Of a stretch of 61,510 nt of DNA, positions 44,177-57,928 are shown piece after piece. Made by a program: the position numbers and the translations under genes. Numbering within the stretch: the first letter of the stretch is position 1; each line of letters begins with the position of its first letter. Location: positions 1 through 61,510 of the IMG/VR virus record IMGVR_UViG_3300006925_000017. One strand, written 5' to 3'. Origin of the DNA: a virus. The notes beneath the pieces are model-generated. The model was given only the letters and a program-made list of their open reading frames with translations. It did not search any database and was not told where the DNA came from.

Positions 44177-44533
44177 ATGAAAACATTTAAAGACTATCTT
44201 ACAGAATCAACAGATGATTCAGTTAATATACAAAATTTACTAAATGAATCTCACGATTTAACTGAGGAGCAAGAAACTGCTATAGATAACGCAGTAGACA
44301 GAATTATGGAAGAACATAATAACGGAAAAGATTTAGAAGTTATTATGGAAGAAATAATTAATGAAGGTATATTAGGATCTGTTTTAGGTGGTCTTACTGG
44401 TTTTGCTTTAGGTAAAACAGTAGGAAAGGCCATTGCAAAGGTACTCGGTATTCAAAAAGGAGCCTTGTACGATTTATTAACTAGTCGATTAATTGGTGCT
44501 GCATTAGGCGCAGTATTAGGTAAACGCATTTAA
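44177..44533 (+). CDS. Capsid-targeted-like precursor of a glycine-zipper peptide
   Basis: This 118-residue protein begins MKTFKDYLTES, which resembles the T4 capsid-targeting sequence of internal head proteins. It has candidate prohead-protease sites of the [LI]-x-E type after residues 10, 24 and 63. The part after residue 63 (55 residues) is a glycine-zipper-like hydrophobic and basic peptide (GILGSVLGGLTGFALGK, then GAALGAVLGKRI). The acidic middle may shield it before cleavage. A packaged peptide that enters or opens the cell membrane during DNA entry is one reading. A holin-like or other small membrane protein is another. The T4 comparison is established knowledge; the role is inference. 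Confidence 0.6.
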   Translation: MKTFKDYLTESTDDSVNIQNLLNESHDLTEEQETAIDNAVDRIMEEHNNGKDLEVIMEEIINEGILGSVLGGLTGFALGKTVGKAIAKVLGIQKGALYDLLTSRLIGAALGAVLGKRI

Positions 44534-44543
44534 TTCAATATAA

Positions 44544-45212
44544 TTGATTTACTCAGGTATAGATTTTTCTCTTAATAGTCCAGGTGCATGTACACAGGAC
44601 CATAAAGGCAAATACACATTTATTACATTCTTTAATTATGGTAATAGGGTGTGGGATGAAAAGGGTAGAAAAATACCTAAATCATTCTCGGTTCATAAAG
44701 AATTAATGGATAATAAAACAATATTAGGATTCCCTTATTATAGACAAGTTAAAGATAAAGACTTTTTACTTAGGGAACGAGAAAAACTCACAGATGGCCA
44801 AAACATAGCCGACTTAATTTCAAATATTTTAATAACATTATATGGCACAGAAGATCATAGAGTTGCTTTAGAAGGATTCTCTTATGGATCAAAAGGTAAT
44901 TCTTTTATTGACATAGTTCAATATAATACCTTTTTAAGAAACGAAATTGTAAACTCTTGGGGTGTAGAAAATATTTCAATTTATCAACCATCACATGTTA
45001 AAAAATTAGCAGGTAAAGGTAATGCAAATAAACATTACATGGTAAAGGCATTTCAAGACGATGTTTTTAATGATAGTGATTTAAGGAAAACTAAATTGTG
45101 GAAATGGACTCAAGGTAAAGACTTTACAGAAAAGATCCCTAAACCAATAGATGACCTTGTAGATGCGTACTTTATATTAAACGCGAATAAGAAAAAGGAA
45201 AGTGAACAGTAA
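44544..45212 (+). CDS. RuvC-like Holliday junction resolvase / RNase H-fold nuclease
   Basis: This 222-residue protein shows the RNase H-fold acidic set: D7 in YSGIDFSL, E110 in VALEGFSYG, and D203/D204/D207 in IDDLVDAYF. It also has the lysine-rich segment PSHVKKLAGKGNANK seen in RuvC-like phage resolvases. The role is cleavage of branched DNA before packaging. T4 uses the unrelated endonuclease VII (gp49), so this is a functional replacement. There is no ATG; TTG at 44544 is the only start after an in-frame stop at 44541 and gives the motif-bearing N-terminus. A terminase-like or transposase-like RNase H protein is less likely. Confidence 0.75.
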   Translation: MIYSGIDFSLNSPGACTQDHKGKYTFITFFNYGNRVWDEKGRKIPKSFSVHKELMDNKTILGFPYYRQVKDKDFLLREREKLTDGQNIADLISNILITLYGTEDHRVALEGFSYGSKGNSFIDIVQYNTFLRNEIVNSWGVENISIYQPSHVKKLAGKGNANKHYMVKAFQDDVFNDSDLRKTKLWKWTQGKDFTEKIPKPIDDLVDAYFILNANKKKESEQ

Positions 45213-45325
45213 AATACTTTATACCTTAAAACCACAATATACTTAAATGCTAGTAATTAGATACTTCTCTTTCTTTAATTAGGTATATTTTATATATAGA
45301 GTTTAGAATTTAGTTTCAGAAAATT
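45213..45325. other. 113-base intergenic region
   Basis: AT-rich spacer without an open reading frame of note. It contains a TTTTATATATAG box about 35 bases before the GroES-like gene, which could be a promoter. I see no convincing terminator or RNA gene. Confidence 0.4.
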
Positions 45326-45592
45326 ATGATAAAGGCAATAAAAAATAGAATATTTCTTAAAAAAGATGAACAACCAGAAAAAATTGGGAGCATCTATGTA
45401 CCAAAATCTGAAGGCCAGTATGCACCACCATATTCAGGTGTTATATTATCTGTTGGTGAAGATATAGAAGATTCGGATTATAAAATAGGAATGACGGTAT
45501 TATTTCATGACTTAGCAGGTACTGAATTTACTTACAACGGTGAAAAGATATTTAGTATTAGAGATTCCGATGTAACTGCTATTATAGAATAA
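45326..45592 (+). CDS. GroES-like co-chaperonin (gp31 analogue)
   Basis: This 88-residue protein has the Cpn10 order of elements. An N-terminal strand (IKAIKNRIFLKK) precedes a loop (GSIYVPKSEGQYAPP) at the mobile-loop position, where I-Y-V stands for the hydrophobic GroEL-binding tripeptide. Next comes YSGVILSVG (equivalent to GEVLAVG), then KIGMTVLFHDLAGTEF and a closing strand DSDVTAII. GroES caps GroEL. T4 gp31 replaces GroES to fold the major capsid protein gp23. Same role is inferred here. It lies between the resolvase and the ssDNA-binding protein. It is slightly shorter than GroES (97) and gp31 (111). Confidence 0.8.
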   Translation: MIKAIKNRIFLKKDEQPEKIGSIYVPKSEGQYAPPYSGVILSVGEDIEDSDYKIGMTVLFHDLAGTEFTYNGEKIFSIRDSDVTAIIE

Positions 45593-45782
45593 TTTTTTTC
45601 TGTTTAGTGTGAAACTAAATAGAGATATGAATATATAAATAACAAAGGAACTGATTATTCAGTGACTTATAAACAGGCATATAACAAGGCAAAGTATATT
45701 GGCAATTCCCGGGCAAGTTAAATAGGCAGCGCTGCGTTATATCCATTAATTAATAACAAAGTAAAATAAAAAGGCAATTAAA
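45593..45782 (+). promoter_or_regulatory. Long leader of the ssDNA-binding protein gene with GGCA repeats
   Basis: This 190-base stretch is the longest gene-free region here. It holds a promoter-like TGAATATATAAATAACAAA at 45628-45646, which contains an exact TATAAATA. GGCA follows at 45676, 45688, 45701, 45712, 45725, 45773 and at the start codon (45785). Palindromes CCCGGG (45708-45713) and GCAGCGCTGC (45726-45735) lie within, and a 7-bp inverted repeat ATATAAC (45679-45685) / GTTATAT (45736-45742) encloses them. The T4 gene 32 leader is a structured operator bound by its own product; this leader may work likewise. Function is inference. Confidence 0.55.
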
Positions 45783-46715
45783 ATGGCAAATGAATTCGAC
45801 ATTTTCAGTGTAAGCGTCAAGGACCTTGACACTGGAGACAGACCTGCACCAAGCAGCGATCTGTACACACCAAAACCCGATCAGGGACAAGACGGTACTT
45901 ACCGTTCACTAATTAGGTTTCTTCCTAATGTAAAAAATCCACGTAAACCTTTCGTTCGTAAATATGTCTATTGGTTAGAAGATAGAGATGGCAACGGATT
46001 TTACGCAGACTCACCTTCAACTGTTGGAGATAAATGTCCGGTACAGGATATGTTCTTTAAACTTAGAAACTCAGAATCTGCTGTAGATAAAAAGATGTCA
46101 GAAGGGCTTAAGCGTAGAGAAGTATTTTATGCATTGGTTCAAATCGTAAAGGATCCACAGAACAGAGATCTTGAAGGCCAAATTAAAGTAATGAAATTTG
46201 GTTACAAGATTAAGGCTAAGATTGATGAGGAATTAAATCCTCAGTTTGATGAACCAACTCAAGTATTCGATCCGTTTGAAGGAAAGAATTTTGAATTAGT
46301 AATTTCAAAGAAAGGTGGTTATCCTAATTATGATTCTAGTAAATTCCAAGGTAGCCGAACTGCAATGGCAATCGGCGGAGAATCAGTAACAACTGATGAT
46401 GCTGGTAGAACTGCAATTCTTGGTTACATTAAGGATGCACCTGAATTAGGCAACTTTGATTATCGTCCATGGACCGATGAGCAGAGAAATAAGGTAATGG
46501 GTGTACTATCTCAATTTAGTAATCCTGGTTCCTCTATTGATACTGTAACTCGTAAACAGGCTGCACCGTCTCCTGCAAAATCTGAAAAGGCAGCGGCGTC
46601 AGTAACTGAAACGGCTGTTGCAGGATCTGCTTCCCCGGCGGCAACAGAAACAAAATCAGAAGATTCTTCTAAAGGAGATGATTTTGATGATTTCATTAAT
46701 GGTTTAGATCTTTAA
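45783..46715 (+). CDS. 32: gp32-like single-stranded DNA-binding protein
   Basis: This 310-residue protein matches T4 gp32 (301) in length and layout. The core contains YRSLIRFLPNVKNPRKPFVR and YVYWLEDRDGNGFYADSP, then DKCPVQDMF, followed by a second OB-like half. A flexible Ala/Ser/Pro/Thr linker (about residues 255-295) leads to an acidic tail ending DDFDDFINGLDL. The tail normally recruits replication partners. The T4 zinc site needs CPxC; here it reads CPVQ and no other cysteines are near, so the zinc finger appears lost. It is flanked by primase, UvsY and UvsW genes. A long leader upstream suggests autoregulation. Confidence 0.85.
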   Translation: MANEFDIFSVSVKDLDTGDRPAPSSDLYTPKPDQGQDGTYRSLIRFLPNVKNPRKPFVRKYVYWLEDRDGNGFYADSPSTVGDKCPVQDMFFKLRNSESAVDKKMSEGLKRREVFYALVQIVKDPQNRDLEGQIKVMKFGYKIKAKIDEELNPQFDEPTQVFDPFEGKNFELVISKKGGYPNYDSSKFQGSRTAMAIGGESVTTDDAGRTAILGYIKDAPELGNFDYRPWTDEQRNKVMGVLSQFSNPGSSIDTVTRKQAAPSPAKSEKAAASVTETAVAGSASPAATETKSEDSSKGDDFDDFINGLDL

Positions 46716-46719
46716 TGAT

Positions 46720-47793
46720 ATGGCAACAGAAGTATTAATATCTTCTGATATGAAAGCTCGGATCATCGATAAGGTGGTCCGAGTTCTTCATACTAACCAT
46801 TCTCACCCTGAGAAAAGAAGAATATTAGAAAGTAAGGAAAGATTAAATTTTGCATGCCCTTATTGTGGAGACTCCACAGATTCGGTAAGAAAGAAGAGAG
46901 GTAATCTTTATTGGAATAATTTACAATATCATTGCTATAATTGTTCAGCACACGAAAGTTTAGACGTCTTCCTAAAAGACCACAATGAAAACTTCGAAGG
47001 TGAAGAAAGAATCAATGTAATTAATTTCATTAAAGAAAACCGTAAAAACTTTTCACTAGGTGAAACTTTAGAGTTTCATTTATTTGAAATGGCAAATAAT
47101 TTATCATTAACATTTGATGAGATTGCATTAGGTTTTAATGTCTATCCAATAAACTCATTAACATATAGAGCATATCCTTATTTAAAAAGTAGATTACTTC
47201 ATCATAAAACCGAAAAGTTCGGTTATGATCCAAGACGAAAGGAACTGTATGTATTTAACCTTACACCTAAAGGAAAGATTGTTGGTTTTCAAGTAAGAGC
47301 GTTGGATGACAATAGTGGTCCTAAATATAAAACGTGGAATATTGAAAGAATATATGATAGGCTTAAAAAACCTTTAAAAGTTTCAGAAGAAGAATTAGAT
47401 TCTCTTAATAAAATATCAATGATATTCGGTATACTTACTACAGATTTAAGTAGGCAGTTTACTGTATTTGAAGGTCCTATAGATTCATTCTTTATGTCTA
47501 ATACAATTGGTCTTACTGGTGTTAAAAAACAAATACTAGATTTTGATGAAATTCCAACTGTTAGATATTTCTTTGATAATGATATTGAAGGAAAGACTAA
47601 AATGATACAAAAACTAAAAAGAGGTAATACTGTTTTTATGTGGGATAAGTTTTTAAAGGATTTTAGAATACCTTCTAAAAAGGTAAAAGATTTAAATGAT
47701 CTAGTTAAATATGAATATAAACATAGGACTGGGTGTTTAAACGAGTTGGATAAATATTTTACAAACAACCATTTAGATCTCATATTCATATGA
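46720..47793 (+). CDS. DNA primase (gp61-like)
   Basis: This 357-residue protein has an N-terminal zinc ribbon: CPYC at residues 46-49 and HCYNC at 71-75. A TOPRIM-type catalytic part follows with EGPID at 251-255 and FFDNDIEG at about 284-291. T4 gp61 is 342 residues. It makes RNA primers for lagging-strand synthesis together with a DnaB-type helicase (not in this window). It starts 4 bases after the ssDNA-binding protein gene and overlaps the next small gene by 4 bases, so these replication genes form one unit. Confidence 0.85.
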   Translation: MATEVLISSDMKARIIDKVVRVLHTNHSHPEKRRILESKERLNFACPYCGDSTDSVRKKRGNLYWNNLQYHCYNCSAHESLDVFLKDHNENFEGEERINVINFIKENRKNFSLGETLEFHLFEMANNLSLTFDEIALGFNVYPINSLTYRAYPYLKSRLLHHKTEKFGYDPRRKELYVFNLTPKGKIVGFQVRALDDNSGPKYKTWNIERIYDRLKKPLKVSEEELDSLNKISMIFGILTTDLSRQFTVFEGPIDSFFMSNTIGLTGVKKQILDFDEIPTVRYFFDNDIEGKTKMIQKLKRGNTVFMWDKFLKDFRIPSKKVKDLNDLVKYEYKHRTGCLNELDKYFTNNHLDLIFI

Positions 47794-48005
47794 TAAAAAA
47801 TTATAGTAATTTTGTGACAGAACAGTTTGATGATTTTTATGATGATTTAGAAACTTCTAAGAAAAAACTTAAATTATTTACTAAGTTTAAAAAAATTGAA
47901 GCAGAAGAAGTAAAAACTAGTTTTTCTTTACCTCAGCCTAAAAAGAAGTTTCAACCAAAGATTAAAAATTATAAAAAGATTAATAATAATAAAGGAATAT
48001 TTTAA
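47790..48005 (+). CDS. Small lysine-rich protein with capsid-targeting-like N-terminus
   Basis: This 71-residue protein begins MIKNYSNFVTEQFDDFY, which fits the tag pattern with a V-T-E candidate cleavage site after residue 11. The rest is strongly basic (KKKLKLFTKFKK ... PKIKNYKKINNNKG), so the processed product would bind DNA, like T4 internal proteins. It sits between primase and UvsY genes with 4-base and 1-base overlaps. A replication-associated basic protein is the alternative. Confidence 0.6.
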   Translation: MIKNYSNFVTEQFDDFYDDLETSKKKLKLFTKFKKIEAEEVKTSFSLPQPKKKFQPKIKNYKKINNNKGIF

Positions 48006-48454
48006 TGGCATTTGACGATACACAAATAAAAGAAGCTAATGAGCAGTTGGAAGGTAGATTAACATCAGATAGAAATGATTGGAAATCAAAGATTAAAGAT
48101 CTTGTTTCTAAGCTTAAAAATATGAATGAGCTGGCCGAGTGCCAAGTAAGAATGTTATCATATCGACAAATACTATTAGATAAAGTAACTGATTTTAAAA
48201 CTACCATATATAAAAGGAACGCTACTTGGGATAGGTATTATAAACAACAGTACCGAGAATATTCAATTAACTATGATGTTAAGTTAACTAACGGTGAAAA
48301 GAATCAATTTATAAAAGCAGATCTTTCATCTCTTAGGCAACAAATTGATATGTTACAATCTCATATAGATTATTATTATGAGTGTATTAAAACATTAGAT
48401 AATATGGCGTTTGCTATAAGAAACAGAATTAATCTGGATGATAAGGAATTTTAA
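48005..48454 (+). CDS. uvsY: UvsY-like recombination mediator
   Basis: This 149-residue, mostly helical protein stands directly before the UvsW helicase, as uvsY does in T4 (137 residues). Its C-terminal helix (YECIKTLDNMAFAIRNRINL) parallels the T4 UvsY end, which has a similar LDAIKSRGFAIK pattern. UvsY loads UvsX recombinase onto gp32-coated ssDNA. The match rests on position, size and the C-terminal pattern. The gene shares single-base or few-base overlaps with both neighbours. Confidence 0.6.
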   Translation: MAFDDTQIKEANEQLEGRLTSDRNDWKSKIKDLVSKLKNMNELAECQVRMLSYRQILLDKVTDFKTTIYKRNATWDRYYKQQYREYSINYDVKLTNGEKNQFIKADLSSLRQQIDMLQSHIDYYYECIKTLDNMAFAIRNRINLDDKEF

Positions 48455-49956
48455 TGGAACTATCTCTGTCGGAAAATAAAAAGTTTTTAGTAATTGATTC
48501 ATGCACCGAATTGGAATATGAGCAATTAAAATCTAGTCTTACTAAGAAAATAGAAGGTTGGAGATTTCACCCTCTAGTAAAGAAAAAGGTATGGGATGGT
48601 AATATTTCATTTATCAAAAGAAATAAAATTCCGGCAGGGTTATGGAAAGAAGTAATTGATATATGTAAAGAATATGATTATCAATTTACATTAAACGGTA
48701 TAACTGATATTTTTGATACTTCTATAGATGAAGAAATATTTAGATCTTGGGTAGATGAGTTTTTTGCTACATCTGAAATTAAGCCTAGAGATTATCAAAT
48801 TGATGCAGCGATAAAGATTTTAAAGTATAGACGGTGTTTGGCTGAATTAGCAACATCTGCAGGTAAAACTTTAATTTCATTTATGGTGGTTGCTTATATG
48901 ATGGAACAGTTAGGTAAAAAGAAAATCTTAATGATAGTACCTAATGTAAGTTTAGTTGTTCAAGCAAGCGGAGACTTTGAAGAATACAATAAAGGCAGGG
49001 TACCTATTAAGATTCAACAAATTTATGCAGGCGTAAAATTACGAAAGAGTTCTAATGTTGTTATAGGTACTTACCAATCATTAACTAAAAAGGACGAGGA
49101 ATACTTTAGCCAATTTGATGCAGTCTTTGTAGATGAAACTCATAAAGCAAAAGCAAATTCAATTCAAAAGATAATGGATAAATGCTGGCATTGTGACTAC
49201 AGATTTGGTTTGAGCGGTACTATTCCTAAAAGAGGAACTGTAAATAGACTAAGCTTAATGTCGGCAATGGGCCCATTAGTAACTCAAGTAAAAGCTGCTC
49301 ACTTACAAGAAGAAGGTCATATTGCAAAATGTAAAGTATTGCAAATCCACATGGAATATGCAACCGATGCTCAAAAAGAAGCATTTTCATCATTATCTAA
49401 AAACCCATATGATAGACAAAAGCTATTTAGTTTAGAACAGAACTTTATTAATGAAAGCGAAAAGAGGTTAGATTTCGTTTGTCAAGTAATTAAAAAGTCT
49501 ACATCTAATTCACTAGTGCTATTTCATAAAATAGCTTATGGTGAAAAGATATACCAAAAACTTCGAGCAATAACAGATAAGAAAGTTTATTATGTAGACG
49601 GTTCTGTTAAATCTGATTTTAGAGAAGAGTTCAAAAAAAGAATGGAAAAAAATGATGATGTTATTATTGTAGCTTCGTATGGTACATTCTCAACCGGTAT
49701 ATCTATTAAAAATATACACAACATATTTTTTACTGAATCATTTAAATCCGAAGTGATCATTAGACAATCAATCGGTAGAGGATTAAGAAAGCACTCATCT
49801 AAAGACGTTGTAAAAATATATGATTTTATTGATGATTTCCGTTATAAAGTAGATGATCATGACTGGGTAAATTACATATACAGACATGGTATGGAAAGAA
49901 GAAAAATTTACAAAGAGGAAAAGTTTCCATTTGAGGTGCAAAATGTTAGATACTAA
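48454..49956 (+). CDS. uvsW: UvsW-like DNA/RNA helicase
   Basis: This 500-residue SF2 helicase has nearly the length of T4 UvsW (503). Motifs: KPRDYQ (110-115), Walker A ATSAGKT (133-139), DETH (227-230), SGTIP (254-258) and QSIGRGLR (438-445). The N-terminal ~100 residues form the UvsW-specific substrate-binding domain. UvsW unwinds R-loops and branch-migrates recombination intermediates, switching origin-dependent to recombination-dependent replication. It is the last of the replication genes before the head-internal-like cluster. Confidence 0.9.
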   Translation: MELSLSENKKFLVIDSCTELEYEQLKSSLTKKIEGWRFHPLVKKKVWDGNISFIKRNKIPAGLWKEVIDICKEYDYQFTLNGITDIFDTSIDEEIFRSWVDEFFATSEIKPRDYQIDAAIKILKYRRCLAELATSAGKTLISFMVVAYMMEQLGKKKILMIVPNVSLVVQASGDFEEYNKGRVPIKIQQIYAGVKLRKSSNVVIGTYQSLTKKDEEYFSQFDAVFVDETHKAKANSIQKIMDKCWHCDYRFGLSGTIPKRGTVNRLSLMSAMGPLVTQVKAAHLQEEGHIAKCKVLQIHMEYATDAQKEAFSSLSKNPYDRQKLFSLEQNFINESEKRLDFVCQVIKKSTSNSLVLFHKIAYGEKIYQKLRAITDKKVYYVDGSVKSDFREEFKKRMEKNDDVIIVASYGTFSTGISIKNIHNIFFTESFKSEVIIRQSIGRGLRKHSSKDVVKIYDFIDDFRYKVDDHDWVNYIYRHGMERRKIYKEEKFPFEVQNVRY

Positions 49957-49982
49957 TATAGAATATCTTTCTTATGAGAGAT

Positions 49983-49998
49983 GGATATATAAAAAAAG
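49983..49998 (+). promoter_or_regulatory. Putative late-type promoter box
   Basis: GGATATATAAAAAAAG lies 37 bases before the ATG at 50020 and would start transcription of the head-internal-like cluster. Confidence 0.45.
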
Positions 49999-50019
49999 AA
50001 TCAAAAAAAGATAATTATA

Positions 50020-51567
50020 ATGAAACCAATCAAAAAGTTTTCAATGATGACAAAGGCCGAAGGTTCAATTAATGAATCGGCAGATGTTAATCACGATGCA
50101 GTAATGGATCTTGTTAAAAAACTCGGTTACGAAAGCGTTGACGAATTAAAGAAAGAAAAAAATCTTCTAACTAAATTAGAAGGTTTATTAAAGGATTTTA
50201 CTCCTAAACAAGATATCTCTGAAGATGAGCTTGAAGAAGATAGAGCCGAAGATATAGCTGATGAAGTTAAAAAGAAAGGCGAACCTAAATCATTAGAAGG
50301 TGAAGAAGGTGAAAAGGAAGAAGATAAAGAAACTGGTGCATCTGGTGAAGTCGCTGAAACTGATGAAGTTGAAGAAGATACCGCGAAAGATATCGAAGAT
50401 GAAGTATTAGCTAAAGGCGAACCTAAAGATATAGAAGATAAAGCAGGTGATAAGGTATCTGACGATCCTGAAATTACTGCTGATGTTCCTGCTGAAGCTG
50501 ATGAAGTTAAAGATGAAGATGGTGTTGATGTTGCTGCTGAAGAAGAAGAAACACCAGCTGCTACTAGAAGAATTATGGCCTTTGAAGATTTTATTAAAGA
50601 AAAAGAAGTTACCGTAAATAAGAATGTTAAATATCACGATGATGATGAAGAACCTGAAGACTATGCTGTTCCTATAGCAGCGTCTAAAGAGCCTCTTTCT
50701 GAAGATGAAGAATCTAAAGGTATGGAAGATGAAAAAGAAGGTGATGAGCTAGAAGATAAAGGTGATAAGAAAGTTGATTCTGAGGATGACAAAGAAAAAG
50801 CTGATCATTATAAAGGAGCTGTTAAATCTGATGACTCTGAAATTGATGCATTAAAGAAAGATGTTGAATATGATGAAGATGAAGAAAAGAAAGATGAATC
50901 AAGAATCATGTCTTTTTCAAACTTTGTAACTGAAGCTTATGTAGAAGAGGAAGATGAAGAAGTAGAAGAAGCTGAAGATACTGAAGAAGATGAATCAGTA
51001 GAAGAAGGTGTTGGTGAAGTAATTACTAAAGTTGAAGGTGATGAAATTGCTGATGAAGTTGCTGGTGATGATGGTCTTGCTATTCCTGCAGAGAAAGGTG
51101 ACGGTTCTGAAACCGCTGCTGGTATTGCTGGAGATATAATGGATATGGGTAAGGTAAAAGAACAACCTGAATCAAAAGGTGAAGAATTAGTTACTAAAGA
51201 TCAAAATATTACAACTGAAGTAAAGGGTGAAGCTGATGATCTTAAGGATGCTACTGAAGTTCCTGCAGAAATGGGCGATGGTTCTGAATCTGCCGCAGGT
51301 ATTGCTGGAGACATAATGAATATGGGTAAGGTAAAAGTACAACCTGAATCAAAAGGCGAAGCATTAGTTGGAGAAGCTAAGATTAATGAAAAGGATATTA
51401 CTTCTGCTGATGAATTTAAAGAATATGCAATGGCAATTCTAAAAGATGCATTCGGAGATGACTTTGATGAAACTAAGGCAACTGAAACTGCTGAAGGATT
51501 ACTTAAGAAGTATGGTGAAGATTATGGAGCAATGGTTGGAGCTTTACAATCTACGATGGGATCATAA
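50020..51567 (+). CDS. Acidic repeat protein with embedded capsid-targeting-like tags; prohead core candidate
   Basis: This 515-residue protein is extremely rich in Glu, Asp and Lys. It contains three pairs of internal repeats: about 72-92 and 118-138 (EDIADEVKKKGEPK / KDIEDEVLAKGEPK), 184-197 and 295-305 (RIMAFEDFIKE / RIMSFSNFVTE), and 358-390 and 417-450 (GDGSETAAGIAGDIM / GDGSESAAGIAGDIM). The middle pair copies the N-terminal tag of neighbouring proteins and carries [IV]-x-E sites, so it may be cut into several peptides. The C-terminal ~55 residues look globular. Acidic cleaved proteins such as T4 gp22 and gp67 build the prohead core. No enzymatic motif. Confidence 0.6.
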   Translation: MKPIKKFSMMTKAEGSINESADVNHDAVMDLVKKLGYESVDELKKEKNLLTKLEGLLKDFTPKQDISEDELEEDRAEDIADEVKKKGEPKSLEGEEGEKEEDKETGASGEVAETDEVEEDTAKDIEDEVLAKGEPKDIEDKAGDKVSDDPEITADVPAEADEVKDEDGVDVAAEEEETPAATRRIMAFEDFIKEKEVTVNKNVKYHDDDEEPEDYAVPIAASKEPLSEDEESKGMEDEKEGDELEDKGDKKVDSEDDKEKADHYKGAVKSDDSEIDALKKDVEYDEDEEKKDESRIMSFSNFVTEAYVEEEDEEVEEAEDTEEDESVEEGVGEVITKVEGDEIADEVAGDDGLAIPAEKGDGSETAAGIAGDIMDMGKVKEQPESKGEELVTKDQNITTEVKGEADDLKDATEVPAEMGDGSESAAGIAGDIMNMGKVKVQPESKGEALVGEAKINEKDITSADEFKEYAMAILKDAFGDDFDETKATETAEGLLKKYGEDYGAMVGALQSTMGS

Positions 51568-51585
51568 TAAATTAAAACTAAAGAT

Positions 51586-51924
51586 ATGAGTAATATAAAA
51601 AAGTTTGCAGATTTTGTAAATGAATCTTTAAATGAAAGGTTTACTTTCGCCGATGCAGTAGATACTGCTGGTGAAGATGTAAAGAAAAATGAAAAAGGTA
51701 TTGCTACTGTTCTTAAAGCTCTTAAGGCCAGAAAAGCTGATGATATCATGATAATGACAGATACTACCGAAGATGAAGGTTCTGATTTATTTGATGTTAT
51801 TGGAGGAATGAAATCTCTTCCTATAGATTCTACTATTTATGATAAAGCATATCACGGCAAATATAAAGGTAAGAATGTAGTTGTATTTGACGATGGTGAA
51901 GATCTTTTTGCATATACAAAATAA
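51586..51924 (+). CDS. Tagged small head-internal-like protein
   Basis: This 112-residue protein begins MSNIKKFADFVNESLNERF, matching the capsid-targeting-like pattern with a V-N-E site after residue 13. The rest is alpha/beta with an acidic C-terminal part (VVVFDDGEDLFAYTK). No known fold recognised. It lies 18 bases behind the acidic repeat protein and 7 bases before another tagged gene. Likely packaged inside the head if the tag works as in T4; function after delivery unknown. Confidence 0.6.
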   Translation: MSNIKKFADFVNESLNERFTFADAVDTAGEDVKKNEKGIATVLKALKARKADDIMIMTDTTEDEGSDLFDVIGGMKSLPIDSTIYDKAYHGKYKGKNVVVFDDGEDLFAYTK

Positions 51925-51931
51925 TTAAAAC

Positions 51932-52318
51932 ATGAAACATATTAAATTATTTGAACAATTTCTATTAGAATCCGATTTAGATAAATTTTATAATAGTAAG
52001 ATCAAGAATCCTAAAAGTGGTAGAGAAGTTACCGTAAAGACAATATTAGGAGATCCTGACAATCCTTTATATAAAAAGGTAAAGGCAAAGGAAGATCAAC
52101 TAAAAGGTGGATCTGATGATAATTCCGAAGAAATTAAAAAGTTGGAGGATGAGATCAAGGAAATGGATGATCGCATAGAAATGATTAGAATGGATATAGC
52201 TGAGATTGAAGATGAAGATCCTGATGATTATAGAATTCAAGAATTGGAAGAAGAAGAAGGTGGCTTGCTTGCTGATATTGAAATGGCTAAAGAGAAATTG
52301 GCTAAACTTAAAAAATAA
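51932..52318 (+). CDS. Tagged coiled-coil head-internal-like protein
   Basis: This 128-residue protein begins MKHIKLFEQFLLES with an L-L-E candidate cleavage site after residue 13. Residues about 50-128 form a highly charged coiled coil (KKLEDEIKEMDDRIEMIRMD ... EMAKEKLAKLKK). The first nine bases of coding sequence and the first seven residues (MKHIKLF) are the same as in the next gene, so the tag itself may have been duplicated. No further function seen. Confidence 0.6.
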   Translation: MKHIKLFEQFLLESDLDKFYNSKIKNPKSGREVTVKTILGDPDNPLYKKVKAKEDQLKGGSDDNSEEIKKLEDEIKEMDDRIEMIRMDIAEIEDEDPDDYRIQELEEEEGGLLADIEMAKEKLAKLKK

Positions 52319-52320
52319 CC

Positions 52321-53592
52321 ATGAAACATATAAAATTATTCGAGGAATGGCTGACTGACAAAGGTCAGCCATTTCTTTTTGAAGGTGGCGCCGCTGGTCA
52401 CATGGCTCATCCATTTGATGATAAGGATTTAACCTTTGGTGATTTTAAGGCAATGATAGATGCTGGTCTTAGAGGTGAATTAAACTTTGAAGAAGAGGCT
52501 ACCGAAAAGACTGATGGTCAAAATGCATTTGCTACTATTCAAGATGGCGAAGTTAAATTTGCAAGAAACAAAACAGAGTTAAAGAATCCAATGACTCTTT
52601 CTGAATTTAAGAATAAATTTGAAGGTCATCCTAGTAAATTAGTACAAGATACTTTTCAATTTGCTGCACAAGATTTGGCTAGATTATTAATGAACCTTTC
52701 TCCAGCTGACCAGGAAAAATATTTTAAGAATGGAAAAGACTTTATGAACATGGAGTTAATCTATTCACAAAACCCTAATGTTATTCATTATGATACAGAT
52801 GTTATTCAATTTCATGGTATAAAAGAAACGGATGGAAATGGTAATATTACAGGTACTAATAATAAACCTGCAAAAGAAATCGCAGATATACTTAAAAAGG
52901 TTGAATCTGATATTGGTAAAACATTTAAAATAATTCCACCTAAGGCTATTAAATTACAAAAAGATTTAGATTTTACTGCAAATAAGAAAAGATTTATTAA
53001 TCAAGTTAATGCTTTAGAAAAAAGATATGGTTTAACTGATAGTGATGAGGTTTCTAAATATCATGAAATGTGGTGGAGAGAATTAATTAATAAACAATTT
53101 CCTTCACTATCACAAGATGTAAAAGAAGGTTTACTTAAGCGATGGGCATACGGAGATAAGAAGAGCTTAAACATGAGATCTCTCGCCAAACAAACTGGAC
53201 CTAAAGAAGCTGCGTTAGTTAAAAAGTTTGATAAAGAAGATGTTGCTAAAAAATATAAAGAAAACATTAGACCTTTTGAAGATCTGTTCTTGGAACTAGG
53301 TTCAGTGATTTTAAAAAATGCGTCTGACTTTTTAGCTGCTAATCCATCTGATGAAGCCCAAAGATTAAGAACACAAATACAAACAGCAGGGAGTAAGATT
53401 AAAAAGACTGGTGGCGCTGACCAAGTAAGAAAGGTAGAGGCTGAGTTAGCAAGGCTCGATAGAATTGGTGGAATAGAATCTATATTTCCAACTGAAGGTA
53501 TAGTATTTAAATATAAAGGAAAAATTTACAAACTAACTGGAACCTTTGCTGCAATTAATCAACTATTAGGTATCATTAAGTTCGGTAGATAA
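52321..53592 (+). CDS. Ligase-fold nucleotidyltransferase with capsid-targeting-like N-terminus
   Basis: This 423-residue protein has a full covalent nucleotidyltransferase motif set: motif I KTDG (residues 63-66), ARN at 81-83 as motif Ia, motif III FMNMELIY (141-148), motif IV EGIVFK (392-397) and motif V YKLTG (403-407). The long helical insert between III and IV (about 180-385) is unusual. The family links nucleic acid ends or caps RNA through lysine-NMP. The N-terminus MKHIKLFEEWLTD resembles the tag of neighbouring proteins, but its site reads L-T-D rather than L-x-E. An RNA ligase is more likely than a DNA ligase because no C-terminal OB domain follows. Substrate unknown. Confidence 0.65.
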   Translation: MKHIKLFEEWLTDKGQPFLFEGGAAGHMAHPFDDKDLTFGDFKAMIDAGLRGELNFEEEATEKTDGQNAFATIQDGEVKFARNKTELKNPMTLSEFKNKFEGHPSKLVQDTFQFAAQDLARLLMNLSPADQEKYFKNGKDFMNMELIYSQNPNVIHYDTDVIQFHGIKETDGNGNITGTNNKPAKEIADILKKVESDIGKTFKIIPPKAIKLQKDLDFTANKKRFINQVNALEKRYGLTDSDEVSKYHEMWWRELINKQFPSLSQDVKEGLLKRWAYGDKKSLNMRSLAKQTGPKEAALVKKFDKEDVAKKYKENIRPFEDLFLELGSVILKNASDFLAANPSDEAQRLRTQIQTAGSKIKKTGGADQVRKVEAELARLDRIGGIESIFPTEGIVFKYKGKIYKLTGTFAAINQLLGIIKFGR

Positions 53593-53679
53593 AATAGTAT
53601 ATAGGCCTATATAGATCACCTGTATTAAGAGTTAGCATTTGTGATATTTGTATATACTCTGAAGATAATAGAGTAAGAT

Positions 53680-53709
53680 AAGGGGTAGGTATTATGCTAT
53701 CCTTTTTTT
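53680..53709 (+). terminator. Probable intrinsic terminator
   Basis: AAGGGGTAG (53680-53688) pairs with CTATCCTTT (53697-53705) over nine base pairs, two of them G-T, with an 8-base loop and a run of seven T. It lies in the 168-base gap after the ligase-fold gene and would separate it from the next gene. Confidence 0.6.
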
Positions 53710-53728
53710 ATATAGCTATTAAACTAAA

Positions 53729-53741
53729 GAATATATAAATT
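53729..53741 (+). promoter_or_regulatory. Putative late-type promoter box after the terminator
   Basis: GAATATATAAATT lies 32 bases before the ATG at 53761, just after the hairpin at 53680, as expected for a new transcription unit. Confidence 0.5.
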
Positions 53742-53760
53742 GACAATATAAAATAAGCAA

Positions 53761-56571
53761 ATGAAAGAGTTAACTCAGATTTATAAAGATGCAGGGCAAC
53801 AATTAATAGAAGATCTTTTTAAGGATTATCTTGTAGTTTCAGAAAAACTATCAGGTTCTTCATTTTCATTTAAAAAAGGCGGTGAAGGAATTACTTTTTA
53901 TAAAGGTGGAAATCAAAAGCCTATTAACTTAATTGATAGGACTATAATGGTTTATTATGAAAAGCCTATTAATTTTATAAAATCTGTAACTAACAAAAAT
54001 CTTTCTTCTATTCCTGAAAATTGGAAGTTCTGTTTTCAATATTTTGTAAATACTAATCCTGGTATTATTACTTATGATAAGCTACCTAAAAACAATTTAG
54101 TACTTACTCATATTAAAGTAATGACACCAGCTGGCAAAGTTACAAAGGTTATAGAAGATCCTAGAGTAATTAGAGACTGGGCAAACGCATTAGGTGTTAC
54201 TCCATTACTTCCATTATTTAAAGGTTACTTAACAGAAGATCAAAAGAAAAAGATTAAAGAATTTTTAGAAACACCAAAAGAAGATCATGCTGAGATTTTT
54301 AGTACTAATTCATTTGCTGAATATTTACTTAGAATTCTAAATCCTAATATTCAATCAACTACTTTACAAAATGATCTTAAGAAGCCTATAGAATCTATTG
54401 TATTTAAATTTTATAAATCTGGTACTAAACAAGTTATTGCTGCTAAGTTAATAGATCCTTATACAATTAATTTAATGAAAGAAAAGGAGCCTATAGATAT
54501 GAGGAAGACTCCTGCTGATATTAATGAAATTATTTTGTTGGATCTTTTAGCATTTATAGAAGAAAGAGGAATTAAGAAGCATGAGATTTTAGGGGATAGT
54601 GAAGATATGAGATACATAGAATTAGTTTCAAACATATTTAATGACTATGTAACCAAAAGAGGAAAAGATATTGCAAAGATTGATATTGAAAAAGCTGAGT
54701 TTGCTAAAGGTAAAGAATTTGATTTAAATGTAGAATTAATACCAAGCCAAAGAACTAAAGATATCCTTAATAGTAATCCTAAGCTAAAAGACTTATTTAA
54801 AATAATGTTAGGCTCTTTAAAAAAGAAAAGAAAGAATGCCGGTAATATTATGACACCATCAGTTATTGAAGATTTTAATAAAATGGTAAATAAAGTAACC
54901 GATGTAATTCAAACAAAGGATGATGGCAAATTTAAAACTTTTGATGATTACTTAAAAATTAAATCAACTAATGAATCTCTTTTACCTAATGCTGAAGAAT
55001 TATTAATTGAAGATAAAGTATTGGATTATAATAATTTTATTAACCTAGCAAAGGTTGATGTTTTAAATGAAGCAAAGAAACAGCCTAACGTAAAAGAAAG
55101 ACAGGCTAATTGGTTAAAGCATTATGAAAAAACTTTCCCACAAACAAGAAGAGATTCTGCAGGTCCTAAATATAGCCCAGAATATGTAAGAGCTAATTTT
55201 GGAGCAAATGATGGTACTGCCGAAGAAAACATTCAGAAATATTTAAAAGCTTTAAAAGTCCCTACATCCGCATATAAGATAGAGGGCTTTCCTAGCGGGC
55301 ATTACCATAAAGATGTTGCCAAAACCTTTTCTGGTCAATTTCATACTTATAAAATAACATTAAAGGCTAATAAACAAATATTAGGACAAGACTTTAAAAG
55401 AGGAGATACTATTTTTCTAACCAATCGTTATAAAGTAAGTGCAAAGACAGGCGAAGCAGCAGTAATAAAAGGAAAAGATTTAACTCCTGATGCAATGGAT
55501 CTTGCAAGTACTACCTATAAAACAGGAGTAGCGGTTGTTACTAAAGTAAATCAGTTTATAGATAACACATCTTACCCTGACAATTATAAACAATTCATTA
55601 AAGATTCTATGCAAGTAGTATTAAAAAATAAAGTTGGCACCTTTTCAGATTTTGAAGTCTATGCTTCTAGTGGAACTCCTATAGTATATAAAGTTGGTGC
55701 TTCTTTCTTTGATGGAATAGATCAAGTTTCTGTAGCTAATTTTTCTAATGACTTTGGTGAAGTGTTAGGGGCATTAATGATGTTTAATATAATTAAAGAT
55801 ACGGGAGAAGGATTAGCATATCCTAAGAATTCAAATGAAGCATTAGTTGATTTTGAATTTGATCAATATAAAGTTTCTTCTAAGGCAGGAGGCGGAGGTA
55901 CACCGAGTGGATCTTCAATAATGAAAATGATTGATAATGCTAAAAGAAATGATGGCCTTATGTTAGATGTAGATCAAACAACATTTTATGAAGATGTAGT
56001 TAAGGTATGGCTAAACCCATATGAATTAAATAGAAATTCAACAACATATAATAAAGTGATGAATTTAGCTGCTGATGTACTAGGACCTAACCAAGGATCA
56101 GGCTATTCATATGTTTTACAGCAAGCTAACCTAAATCAAAAATCTGTAACAAGAGAAGCCTTAATTAAATTTTTAGATGAATTATTTAAAGAAGATCAAA
56201 ATAAATTTAAATCATTTATAAAAACACTATCAGAAAAAACTGGAGCATGGAGAGGTAAAATTGATTCGACCAAATATGCAAAAGAATATGAGGAGAGAAT
56301 GGAAAAAAATGATTCTAACAGAGTAGGGATGATTTTCTATCCTATTATGGTAGAAACTGCAAATGCATTAAATGAAAAATATTCTGATGTACTAACTCAG
56401 CTTACACAAAAAGTAACTGATGTTAAACAGGTATATTTAGATACTAAAGTTAAAGCAGGTGCTTTCATATTTAAAACTAAAAAGTTTAGTAGTGCTAACT
56501 TTAAGTTTCAACAAAAAGGTATGGTGTGGAATCCTTTTTCATCTATGATGGGAATCAAAATGGTAAAGTAA
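53761..56571 (+). CDS. Large protein with divergent ligase-like N-terminal domain
   Basis: This 936-residue protein has an N-terminal ~240 residues that trace the nucleotidyltransferase pattern: KLSG at 29-32 for motif I (KxxG), YKGG at about 47-50, WKFCFQYFV at 88-96 in place of motif III (the acidic residue is replaced), IESIVFKF at 210-217 for motif IV, and AAKLID at 227-232 for motif V. Catalytic ability is uncertain. Two tag-like stretches lie inside: FKTFDDYLKIKSTNE (391-405) and LDYNNFINLAKVDVLNEA (421-438). These may divide it into pieces when cut. The C-terminal half is alpha/beta with no recognised family. It may be a giant head-internal protein. Confidence 0.5.
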   Translation: MKELTQIYKDAGQQLIEDLFKDYLVVSEKLSGSSFSFKKGGEGITFYKGGNQKPINLIDRTIMVYYEKPINFIKSVTNKNLSSIPENWKFCFQYFVNTNPGIITYDKLPKNNLVLTHIKVMTPAGKVTKVIEDPRVIRDWANALGVTPLLPLFKGYLTEDQKKKIKEFLETPKEDHAEIFSTNSFAEYLLRILNPNIQSTTLQNDLKKPIESIVFKFYKSGTKQVIAAKLIDPYTINLMKEKEPIDMRKTPADINEIILLDLLAFIEERGIKKHEILGDSEDMRYIELVSNIFNDYVTKRGKDIAKIDIEKAEFAKGKEFDLNVELIPSQRTKDILNSNPKLKDLFKIMLGSLKKKRKNAGNIMTPSVIEDFNKMVNKVTDVIQTKDDGKFKTFDDYLKIKSTNESLLPNAEELLIEDKVLDYNNFINLAKVDVLNEAKKQPNVKERQANWLKHYEKTFPQTRRDSAGPKYSPEYVRANFGANDGTAEENIQKYLKALKVPTSAYKIEGFPSGHYHKDVAKTFSGQFHTYKITLKANKQILGQDFKRGDTIFLTNRYKVSAKTGEAAVIKGKDLTPDAMDLASTTYKTGVAVVTKVNQFIDNTSYPDNYKQFIKDSMQVVLKNKVGTFSDFEVYASSGTPIVYKVGASFFDGIDQVSVANFSNDFGEVLGALMMFNIIKDTGEGLAYPKNSNEALVDFEFDQYKVSSKAGGGGTPSGSSIMKMIDNAKRNDGLMLDVDQTTFYEDVVKVWLNPYELNRNSTTYNKVMNLAADVLGPNQGSGYSYVLQQANLNQKSVTREALIKFLDELFKEDQNKFKSFIKTLSEKTGAWRGKIDSTKYAKEYEERMEKNDSNRVGMIFYPIMVETANALNEKYSDVLTQLTQKVTDVKQVYLDTKVKAGAFIFKTKKFSSANFKFQQKGMVWNPFSSMMGIKMVK

Positions 56572-56581
56572 ATATATAAGG
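56569..56581 (+). promoter_or_regulatory. Putative promoter box overlapping a stop codon
   Basis: TAAATATATAAGG overlaps the stop of the preceding gene, 14 bases before the ATG at 56583. The spacing is shorter than for other boxes, so it may serve as leader sequence only. Confidence 0.3.
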
Positions 56582-56582
56582 T

Positions 56583-57701
56583 ATGGATAACATAAATGAT
56601 TTAAATGATTTCTTAAATGAAAGGAGAGTAACTGTTAAGAGAAGGTACACTGAGGCTCACCCAGCTAAAAATGTATCTACTGCTGCTAGAGTTCGTTCTG
56701 CTATTTTAGATGCTGTTGCTGATGGTCATTTAACTGAAGAGGAGGTTAATAATATCTTATCTGAAATAAAGGCTCACAAAAGATGGCTTAAAAGAAATGT
56801 AGGATTATTTAATATTAGTGAAGATGAAACTGGGATTAAGAGATATTCATTATCTCCTTATGGTCATAGAGTAAGAACTGCAACCGCTCCAATTAATGAA
56901 GCTTTAAAAGTTCCTCATAAAGAACAAGGTAAGAAAAAGGTTAATATGTTTGTTGGTAGATTCCAACCTTTTACATTAGGTCATGTTAAAGTATTTGAAA
57001 AAATGTATAAAGAAAATGGAAAGCCTGTAGTTGTATTTTTAGTTAGAGGAAAAAACAACGATCCTGAGAAAAGGCCGTTTGATGAAGAAATGCAACAAGC
57101 AATGTTTGCTAAGATGGCAAAACAATATCCATTTTTAGAAACTGCTATTGTAGTTCCTAATGGTGCAATTGATACAATGTTTGCAGCAGCAAGACCTGCT
57201 TATGAACCTGTGATGTGGGGATATGGGACGGATAGAAAAAAATCATACGGTGCAATGATTGACAAACAATCATACCGAGATCAATTAGGAGTAGATCCTG
57301 ATTTTAAGGGTTTTGAGATTTTTAGAACTGATGATAACATTTCAGCATCTAAAGTTCGTAATGCGTTAAAGATAGATGATGAAAAGACTTTTAAGAAAAT
57401 GACTCCTAAAAGTATACATAGTTTTTATAAGCCATTACAAAATATATTAGAACCAATAAAAGAAATTAAAAATAACAACATGAAAAATTTAAAATCACTG
57501 AATAACTTTACTGTTGAAGAATCAAAGATCAATGAAGAGTATATTGAGCTTATGCCTGGAATGGAAGAAGGCTTAGAACAAATAGTAGAAGGTTGGATAG
57601 AATGGAAAAGTGGACCTGCAACAGAAAAGAGTGATATTGCTCCAGCAAGAAAAGAATTATTAAACTTTTGTACAACTTATTTAAAAAAGAATATTAAATA
57701 A
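56583..57701 (+). CDS. NMNAT-like adenylyltransferase with capsid-targeting-like N-terminus
   Basis: This 372-residue protein begins MDNINDLNDFLNERRV, a tag-like segment with an L-N-E site after residue 13. After a helical region comes the nucleotidylyltransferase fold: GRFQPFTLGH (125-134), the HIGH-type ATP site, and ISASKVRNAL (253-262), the second signature. Such enzymes add AMP to nicotinamide mononucleotide, pantetheine phosphate or FMN; the layout is most like phage NadM/NMNAT-type proteins. The last 73 residues start with M300 and read KNLKSLNNFTVEES, a second tag, behind an A-rich stretch. It may be a fused or internally initiated small protein. Confidence 0.7.
   Translation: MDNINDLNDFLNERRVTVKRRYTEAHPAKNVSTAARVRSAILDAVADGHLTEEEVNNILSEIKAHKRWLKRNVGLFNISEDETGIKRYSLSPYGHRVRTATAPINEALKVPHKEQGKKKVNMFVGRFQPFTLGHVKVFEKMYKENGKPVVVFLVRGKNNDPEKRPFDEEMQQAMFAKMAKQYPFLETAIVVPNGAIDTMFAAARPAYEPVMWGYGTDRKKSYGAMIDKQSYRDQLGVDPDFKGFEIFRTDDNISASKVRNALKIDDEKTFKKMTPKSIHSFYKPLQNILEPIKEIKNNNMKNLKSLNNFTVEESKINEEYIELMPGMEEGLEQIVEGWIEWKSGPATEKSDIAPARKELLNFCTTYLKKNIK
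57480..57701 (+). CDS. Possible internal-start small tagged protein (in frame within the adenylyltransferase gene)
   Basis: An ATG at 57480 in the same frame follows an A-rich stretch (AAATTAAAAATAACAAC) like other leaders here. It would give 73 residues starting MKNLKSLNNFTVEE, with the tag pattern and an acidic middle. Whether it is made separately, or is a fused domain of the larger protein, cannot be told from sequence. Confidence 0.3.
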   Translation: MKNLKSLNNFTVEESKINEEYIELMPGMEEGLEQIVEGWIEWKSGPATEKSDIAPARKELLNFCTTYLKKNIK

Positions 57702-57928
57702 TGTCTAAAGACGTAAATGAAAATGAAGCAGGAACCGTTGGCTTAAATCCTAACATGGATGTACAGGGTATGGGGGCTGTTGAGCTTCCAGGTGATCCTG
57801 GATCGGCAAATTCTTTTGCTACACAAAAGGTTGGTAGTGGAGATGATCCTGAAGGAAAAAAGAAGAAAAAGAAGAAAGTATTACTTTTATCGTTTGATAA
57901 GTTTATGGATCTTCTTCAAGTAAAATAA
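57701..57928 (+). CDS. Small protein with poly-lysine and C-terminal tag-like helix
   Basis: This 75-residue protein is Gly/Asp/Asn-rich and disordered over the first 50 residues. It then carries GKKKKKKK and ends VLLLSFDKFMDLLQVK. The final helix resembles the tag core of the neighbours (SF-x2-F) but stands at the C-terminus and lacks the x-E site. It overlaps the adenylyltransferase stop (TAATG). A small DNA-binding head protein is possible. No known family. Confidence 0.5.
   Translation: MSKDVNENEAGTVGLNPNMDVQGMGAVELPGDPGSANSFATQKVGSGDDPEGKKKKKKKVLLLSFDKFMDLLQVK

Follow-up and report, generated by a model that had tools for sequence, protein, structure and literature searches.

A short N-terminal tag resembling T4 capsid-targeting sequences precedes unrelated proteins in uncultured T4-like phages

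The window considered here—the whole stretch of DNA that was analysed, a 61,510-base IMG/VR virus record—comes from an uncultured T4-like virus of bacteria, carries tail and replication genes of the T4-like type, and is probably a fragment of a larger genome. Six of its 51 predicted genes (19,698 amino acids, aa, together) begin with a similar segment of 10–13 residues, called the tag below (Table 1), in which a strict motif, [FYL]-x-x-[FYW]-[LIV]-x-[ED], starts at residues 4–7. These six genes and their N-termini had been pointed out in a first-pass annotation of the same DNA, and all were confirmed; the observation of the tag is genuine. Every tag except that of the gene at 52321 had been said to end in [LIV]-x-E, and five of the six indeed end in [LV]-x-E, with the one at 52321 ending in D and followed by an L-F-E eight residues further on. 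In the window, 20 occurrences of the strict motif were counted, 14 of which are not N-terminal and are scattered over the 19,698 aa. From the rate of these 14, about 0.33 N-terminal matches are expected, a post hoc figure because the motif was written from the six genes themselves; enrichment was therefore tested on relatives.

Genes are named below by their start positions. Within families of homologues the tag is widely kept, namely in 32 of 33 members for 47790, in all ten for 51586, and in its strict form in 36 of 45 for 44177, whose nine other members are variants (four with K or N replacing the final E, and two being tags with an early start call). The 50020 product starts with a degenerate tag and a delayed site (MKPIKKFS...SINE/S, the slash marking the predicted cut) resembling that of T4 ipI, and its homologue in the relative L079 begins MKHIKKFSQLVTES. 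The internal copies previously placed in three window proteins are also present: RIMAFEDFIKE (residues 184–194) and RIMSFSNFVTE (residues 295–305) in the 50020 product; the cores FDDYL (residues 394–398) and YNNFI...LNE (residues 423–437) in the 53761 product, with E not directly after the core; and, from residue 300 of the 56583 product, the tag-like stretch MKNLKSLNNFTVEE...INE.

Table 1. Tagged genes and related features, in window positions.
Feature	Position	Strand	Tag and associated elements
118-aa tagged protein	44177..44533	+	tag MKTFKDYLTE at 44177-44206
71-aa tagged protein	47790..48005	+	tag MIKNYSNFVTE at 47790-47822
515-aa acidic protein	50020..51567	+	degenerate N-terminal tag; internal tags 50569-50601, 50902-50934
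112-aa tagged protein	51586..51924	+	tag MSNIKKFADFVNE at 51586-51624
128-aa tagged protein	51932..52318	+	tag MKHIKLFEQFLLE at 51932-51970, then NPKSGREV cargo motif
423-aa ligase-like enzyme	52321..53592	+	tag MKHIKLFEEWLTD at 52321-52359; second L-x-E (LFE/GG) at 52375-52383
936-aa protein, RNA-ligase-2-like domain and swappable half	53761..56571	+	internal tags and L-N-E at 54931-55071
372-aa nucleotidyltransferase (NMNAT/cytidylyltransferase-like)	56583..57701	+	tag MDNINDLNDFLNE at 56583-56621; internal tag-like stretch and I-N-E at 57480-57536
75-aa putative capsid N-arm mimic	57701..57928	+	V-N-E, NPNM...GSGD arm, poly-Lys, C-terminal tag-like LLSFDKFMDLL, core at 57890-57916

Relatives were collected from viral_contigs as loci homologous to the 52321 product (the best 80 of 569) and to the 56583 product (40 loci). 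The window and loci L001–L129 together yield 1343 distinct predicted proteins, in which 178 of the 627 strict-motif matches start at index 2–7. A later set, made up of the window, the relatives' loci, and added stretches of large relatives, comprised 2116 proteins in 1060 clusters at 40% identity. The N-terminal tag was found in 49 of the 1060 cluster representatives, compared with a mean of 4.5 and a maximum of 11 for shuffled N-termini, and with a mean of 5.3 and a maximum of 13 for internal windows (750 representatives of at least 70 aa). The tag thus also stands before other proteins in related genomes, for which the first-pass annotation had suggested a search. By a looser expression, tagged genes number 11 of 237 in the relative G005 (180,000 of 181,663 bases covered), 14 of 223 in G002, 16 of 254 in G004, and 15 of 232 in G003 (160,000 of 161,411 bases covered), some of these being chance matches, as the expression fits 0.4–1.7% of internal Met residues.

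IMG/VR was scanned with a degenerate DNA pattern encoding MK-x-x-KL[FY]E-x-[FY]-x-x-E, which is blind to the differently spelled tags of T4 and G005. At least 119 stretches were returned, 80 of which are listed (L167–L246). In these 80, the pattern marks 107 reading frames, corresponding to at least 98 distinct tagged proteins of at least 45 aa in at least 65 body clusters; each of the 98 has at most 40 open codons upstream. Aligning 65 cluster representatives gave the consensus MKHIKLFEQF-x-NE, several letters of which the pattern had prescribed (residues 3, 9, and 12 were largely free), followed by no consensus at all. At an E-value of 0.001, Pfam recognized 14 families with one member each—including DUF5661, DUF5824, a cytidylyltransferase-like protein, a D-Ala ligase C-terminus, a methyltransferase, and Acb1—and at least 51 of the 65 representatives had no match. 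The bodies behind the tags are thus unrelated, as had been suggested from the window, and the description of the tag as a portable label holds for dozens of N-termini and for the inside of some proteins as well. The 462 kb phage record LR756500 contains nine matches to the pattern and none to its reversed form, and genome_contigs contains none, a result counted in favor of the capsid-targeting interpretation given below.

A shared start could have arisen by descent, with the tagged proteins being relics of one duplicated gene. Tagged genes are frequently side by side (as in L140 and L150), and nearly identical DNA is seen among some tags; however, the spread over at least 65 body clusters of different families (nucleotidyltransferase, ATP-grasp, methyltransferase, Acb1) and the presence of one cargo motif, NPx[ST]GRx[VI], behind both N-terminal and internal tags make descent from a single gene very improbable, and copying of the tag followed by a change of body would fit a portable label too. 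A nucleic-acid signal, such as a translation enhancer or other mRNA element that merely resembles a peptide motif, would agree with the tag's place at many start codons and with the reduced codon variety at K5 and L6. Yet 142 tags are encoded by 136 distinct 39-mers, their codons vary about as much as those of the bodies except at a few positions, and the motif also lies inside proteins and near their ends; a signal at the start codon is contradicted by this variety and is scarcely credible. The tag is conserved as protein, not as DNA. In the phages collection, DNA similarity to the tag extended to 345 records, the matches listed being short and mostly at E >0.1, and at the places so indicated in LR756504 and LR756501 a scan showed no tag (LR756504 has four pattern matches elsewhere).

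In a 50 kb T4 control with 73 predicted open reading frames (ORFs), the detector picks only ipII and ipIII, which encode internal head proteins and start MKTYQEFIAE, with ipI showing a degenerate form (MKTFKEF...ITE/A). The motif occurs once in T4 gp23, in AFGSFLTE/A, which we take to be its maturation cleavage site. The T4 capsid-targeting sequence (CTS) is described as an N-terminal segment of 10–19 residues whose targeting residues are those at positions 4 and 7 of IPIII (PMC9026906). A short N-terminal segment with T4-type residue spacing is found in the six window genes, at an offset from IPIII of 0 in 44177, +1 in 47790, and +3 in the other four, and the [LI]-x-E of T4-type cleavage is likewise present as a sequence. 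Among 26 tags collected without demanding that ending, 23 have E at residue 13 and 21 have S, A, K, or G at residue 14; one of the three tags without E13 has a delayed [LIV]-x-E (VNE/A). In the 52321 family (32 rows), the tag ends in E in all 14 rows with a longer linker and in D in 17 of the 18 without it (the remaining one, from L079, ending in E), and [LIV]-x-E/GG at the start of the body is kept in 32 of 32.

The protease expected to act at such sites can be followed in the relatives. PF03420 (Peptidase S77) matches four of 15 relatives' records, all four over the Pfam cut-off, and a profile built from four such proteases (A7) was tested on 15 tag-fetched records of 117 kb or more and matched every one, 14 with E-values no higher than 1e-60 and G029 by a 132-aa frame only (1.8e-11). 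Three of the 15 (G019, G026, and G027) give equal scores and are probably near-identical. Two more records of that size are listed, G001 and G004; both are among the four that match PF03420, so that all 17 are matched. LR756500, the Microcystis phage Mel-JY01, and T4 gene 21 also match A7, and G005, in which the homologue of the 52321 product is 83% identical, has a gp21-type protease match. Among eight comparison records (three from huge phages and five isolates), A7 matches four—all three huge phages and, weakly, PALS_2—and the protease alone therefore does not imply the tag.

Gene position provides a further link to the head. By PHROG matches, L127 has the order portal, tagged 123-aa acidic gene, head maturation protease, and major head protein, followed by a 316-aa gene with the tag-like start MKLSKKLMLFEEFTE. 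Against the T4 order 20-67-68-21-22-23, the tagged gene occupies the gp67/68 slot between portal and protease. The proteases of L126 and L127 both match the PHROG head maturation protease. Their genes (L126:8183-9904 and L127:13459-15459) encode 573–666 aa, far more than the 212 aa of T4 gp21, which is accompanied by a separate scaffold gene 22. A protease–scaffold fusion was considered for the long gene and dropped, its PHROG family itself having 519 positions and covering much of it.

The same evidence bears on a different role for the tag, that of a docking peptide for another structure such as the tail, a membrane, or the replication complex, with [LIV]-x-E being the end of an amphipathic helix. 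Tagged genes do occur among tail and replication genes, and the tag helix in the structure model of the 52321 product is predicted at low confidence only. The retention of E at residue 13, the same kind of tag on T4 ipII and ipIII, the gp21-type protease match in every one of the 15 large tag-fetched records, and the tagged gene between portal and protease in L127 argue against docking elsewhere, which we consider unlikely. With the alike N-termini of T4 ipI–ipIII, the same findings support what the first-pass annotation had proposed: the tag is very probably a capsid-targeting sequence like that of the T4 internal proteins, applied far more widely. The system can be read, with good support at the level of sequence, as a much enlarged version of the known T4 one.

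Thus, a tag of 10–13 residues probably loads unrelated proteins into the head, from which they would enter the next cell with the DNA. During head assembly, the hydrophobic face F/Y-x-x-F/Y/W-L/I/V would bind the prohead core; a gp21-type prohead protease would then cut after [LIV]-x-E, leaving the body in the head among the DNA; and the trimmed bodies would be ejected into the next host, as T4 and P1 precedent suggests, where the cargo may serve early takeover or counter-defence. An internal tag would join a carrier domain to interchangeable cargo.

Such a junction can be followed in the 53761 product. Its N-terminal domain (residues 1 to about 390) is T4 RNA ligase 2-like: Foldseek with residues 1–446 ranked 2hvq first (E 1.4e-7, probability 1.0, with low TM-scores of 0.29/0.39), and E28-K29 is invariant in a family alignment, the modeled domain thus appearing to share the T4 RNA ligase 2 fold. 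Among 28 family members chosen for alignment, the 16 long ones fall into a single group up to the junction at residue 440 but split beyond it into two sets of eight, between which BLAST found no match of at least 100 aa. Compared with the window protein, identity before and after the junction is 61% and 95% in L105, 92% and 46% in L114, and 95% and 18% in L042, and sliding identity shifts at residues ~421–440, a range spanning YNNFI (423–427) and LNE (435–437). The second half is exchanged at the internal tag and its [LIV]-x-E. The other 12 members consist of the ligase domain followed by a nucleotidyltransferase, with TFDQFIK-type tails at the end. Furthermore, relatives of 53761 have the NPKSGREV-type motif of the 51932 product behind an internal tag, and NPx[ST]GRx[VI], present in 12 of 3614 proteins taken from tag-pattern or window-homology loci in which tags are over-represented, stands directly behind a tag in all 12 (four N-terminal and eight internal). 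As a general rule, alignment boundaries at the strict motif were not convincing, being enriched in one of four classes (77 versus 55.2), in which the reversed motif was also high. A narrower tag expression gave a modest effect: of its 30 internal sites, 18 coincide with an alignment boundary, compared with 12.0 for random positions, which attained the observed number in 3 draws out of 1000. The case for polyproteins is therefore built on 53761 and the NPx[ST]GR cargo.

Besides that boundary result and the sampling of the 3614 proteins, several findings weigh against the capsid-targeting interpretation. A prohead protease gene, which had been suggested as something to look for nearby in the full genome, was matched in the large relatives, and no gp21-type protease was matched in the 61.5 kb window fragment; G002 and G003 are tagged without an A7 match, possibly as fragments, and LR756501 has the protease with no match to the tag pattern. 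The 52321 tag ends in D, and its second E (LFE/GG) is also found in a tagless Mel-JY01 fusion protein, so that this E may serve the enzyme. Homologues lacking the tag, which had been named as a finding that would speak against targeting, are few—the nucleotidyltransferase in L071, L074, and L078 and the fused Mel-JY01 protein—and count slightly against it. Tags at C-termini are weakly enriched (five clusters, one a doubtful 44-aa ORF, versus a shuffled mean of 1.1 and maximum of 5, and an internal-window mean of 2.3 and maximum of 6); as a general class they are weak and rest on the 53761 and 57701 families.

Among the putative cargo enzymes, the structure model of the 52321 product gave no Foldseek match at E ≤0.001, and the 17 best-ranked matches were all ligases; the best VIA-align Z was 6.0 over 108 residues, in a list from which the absence of a family does not exclude it. 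Together with K63-x-D-G and E392-G-x-V, which are conserved in the family alignment, these weak structural matches suggest a nucleic-acid ligase-like enzyme. The 56583 product matches PF01467 (31.8 bits versus a cut-off of 21), and its three PDB sequence matches are weak (E 0.014 to 0.089) and include two named as nicotinamide mononucleotide (NMN) adenylyltransferases (NMNATs); its tail weakly matches L070 (E 0.001 over 28 residues). A nucleotidyltransferase and a 52321-type domain are fused in one gene in Mel-JY01 (L125:11243-13162, annotated as cytidylyltransferase-like) and in the huge phage LR756508 (L166:10483-13230), which suggests that the two enzymes act together. In G004, a tagged Acb1-like protein (L148:3684-4226) scores 30.0 bits versus a Pfam cut-off of 27, and both of its H-x-T motifs are common to T4 gp57B, which we take to be Acb1; it is a candidate for counter-defence against CBASS (cyclic oligonucleotide-based antiphage signaling) delivered with the DNA. 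In T4, ipI directly adjoins 57B. Tagged ATP-grasp proteins also occur in relatives, that of L143 over the PF07478 cut-off and that of L148 below it, as does an ATP-dependent DNA ligase that is tagged by the looser expression. A PADLOC search gave weak matches only.

The 57701 product shares 27 of 47 residues with the capsid protein of L126 (two-sequence E 2e-16), and an [LV]-N-E site stands just before the N-arm in both; from this alignment, the product appears to be a copy of the capsid protein N-arm. Several longer homologues carry an added N-terminal domain of the MPA[QK]SKAQRR type.

The principle of such labeling is known, as T-even internal proteins have been described as diverse defence proteins with a conserved CTS as their only common feature (PMC3012670). 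The window tag resembles that of T4 IPI, IPII, and IPIII in length, aromatic spacing, cleavage motif, and protease family (MKTYQEFIAE in ipIII versus MKTFKDYLTE in 44177). Unlike those of T4, the proteins here belong to dozens of families and include several enzymes, and there are internal copies, one of them at a cargo junction, as well as tag-like C-termini, a probable capsid N-arm copy, and a common longer form, MKH[IV]KLFEQF[IV]NE. In phage P1, the large counter-defence protein DarB reaches the capsid through an N-terminal signal in its first 30 residues, which functions on a reporter as well; no BLAST consensus is reported for the Dar N-termini (PMC9024508), whereas one consensus is found here across unrelated proteins. 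Polyvalent proteins are likewise multi-domain and exchange domains, and those of phages have been predicted to be packaged and injected (Iyer et al., 2017; PMC5512222); compared by concept, they differ in that no such tag is described in the available text, whereas the exchange point in 53761 is a tag with a predicted prohead-protease site. The head proteins of SPN3US have N-terminal propeptides removed by the prohead protease, several exceeding 100 residues (PMC5694885), compared with 10–13 for the tags here. In the literature searched, which was available in part and left subscription journals mostly outside, we found no mention of the tag for uncultured phages, of cargo junctions formed by internal tags, or of a copied capsid N-arm.

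A wider proposal, which we make tentatively and with somewhat less than even confidence, is that a large group of uncultured T4-like phages (records of ~120 kb to at least 462 kb) uses a general virion-loading code, in which a 13-residue label is placed on an open-ended range of families, internal labels create carrier–cargo polyproteins cut by the prohead protease, cargo is swapped by recombination at the labels, and the loaded set includes RNA ligases, an NMNAT-like nucleotidyltransferase, and an Acb1-like anti-CBASS enzyme. If so, pre-made RNA and NAD repair and counter-defence functions would arrive ahead of any phage gene expression, and the RNA-ligase protein, with an internal tag where its second half is exchanged, suggests a route by which cargo is reshuffled. 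Injected proteins are usually found singly by mass spectrometry; a readable tag would allow their prediction from sequence, even in uncultured phages, with the many tagged families lacking a Pfam match being candidate early-takeover or counter-defence proteins.

Two further features of the window were noted. The T4 late promoter TATAAATA is depleted across positions 1-61510 (5 matches versus 18.4 expected), and as a promoter of tag genes it found no support, the nearest match upstream of any of them being ~2.1 kb off; since the element is rarer than chance, late genes may use another signal. Finally, a 1645-aa protein encoded at 2491-7428, perhaps a fibre, contains long collagen-like repeats of the GTQGIQG type.

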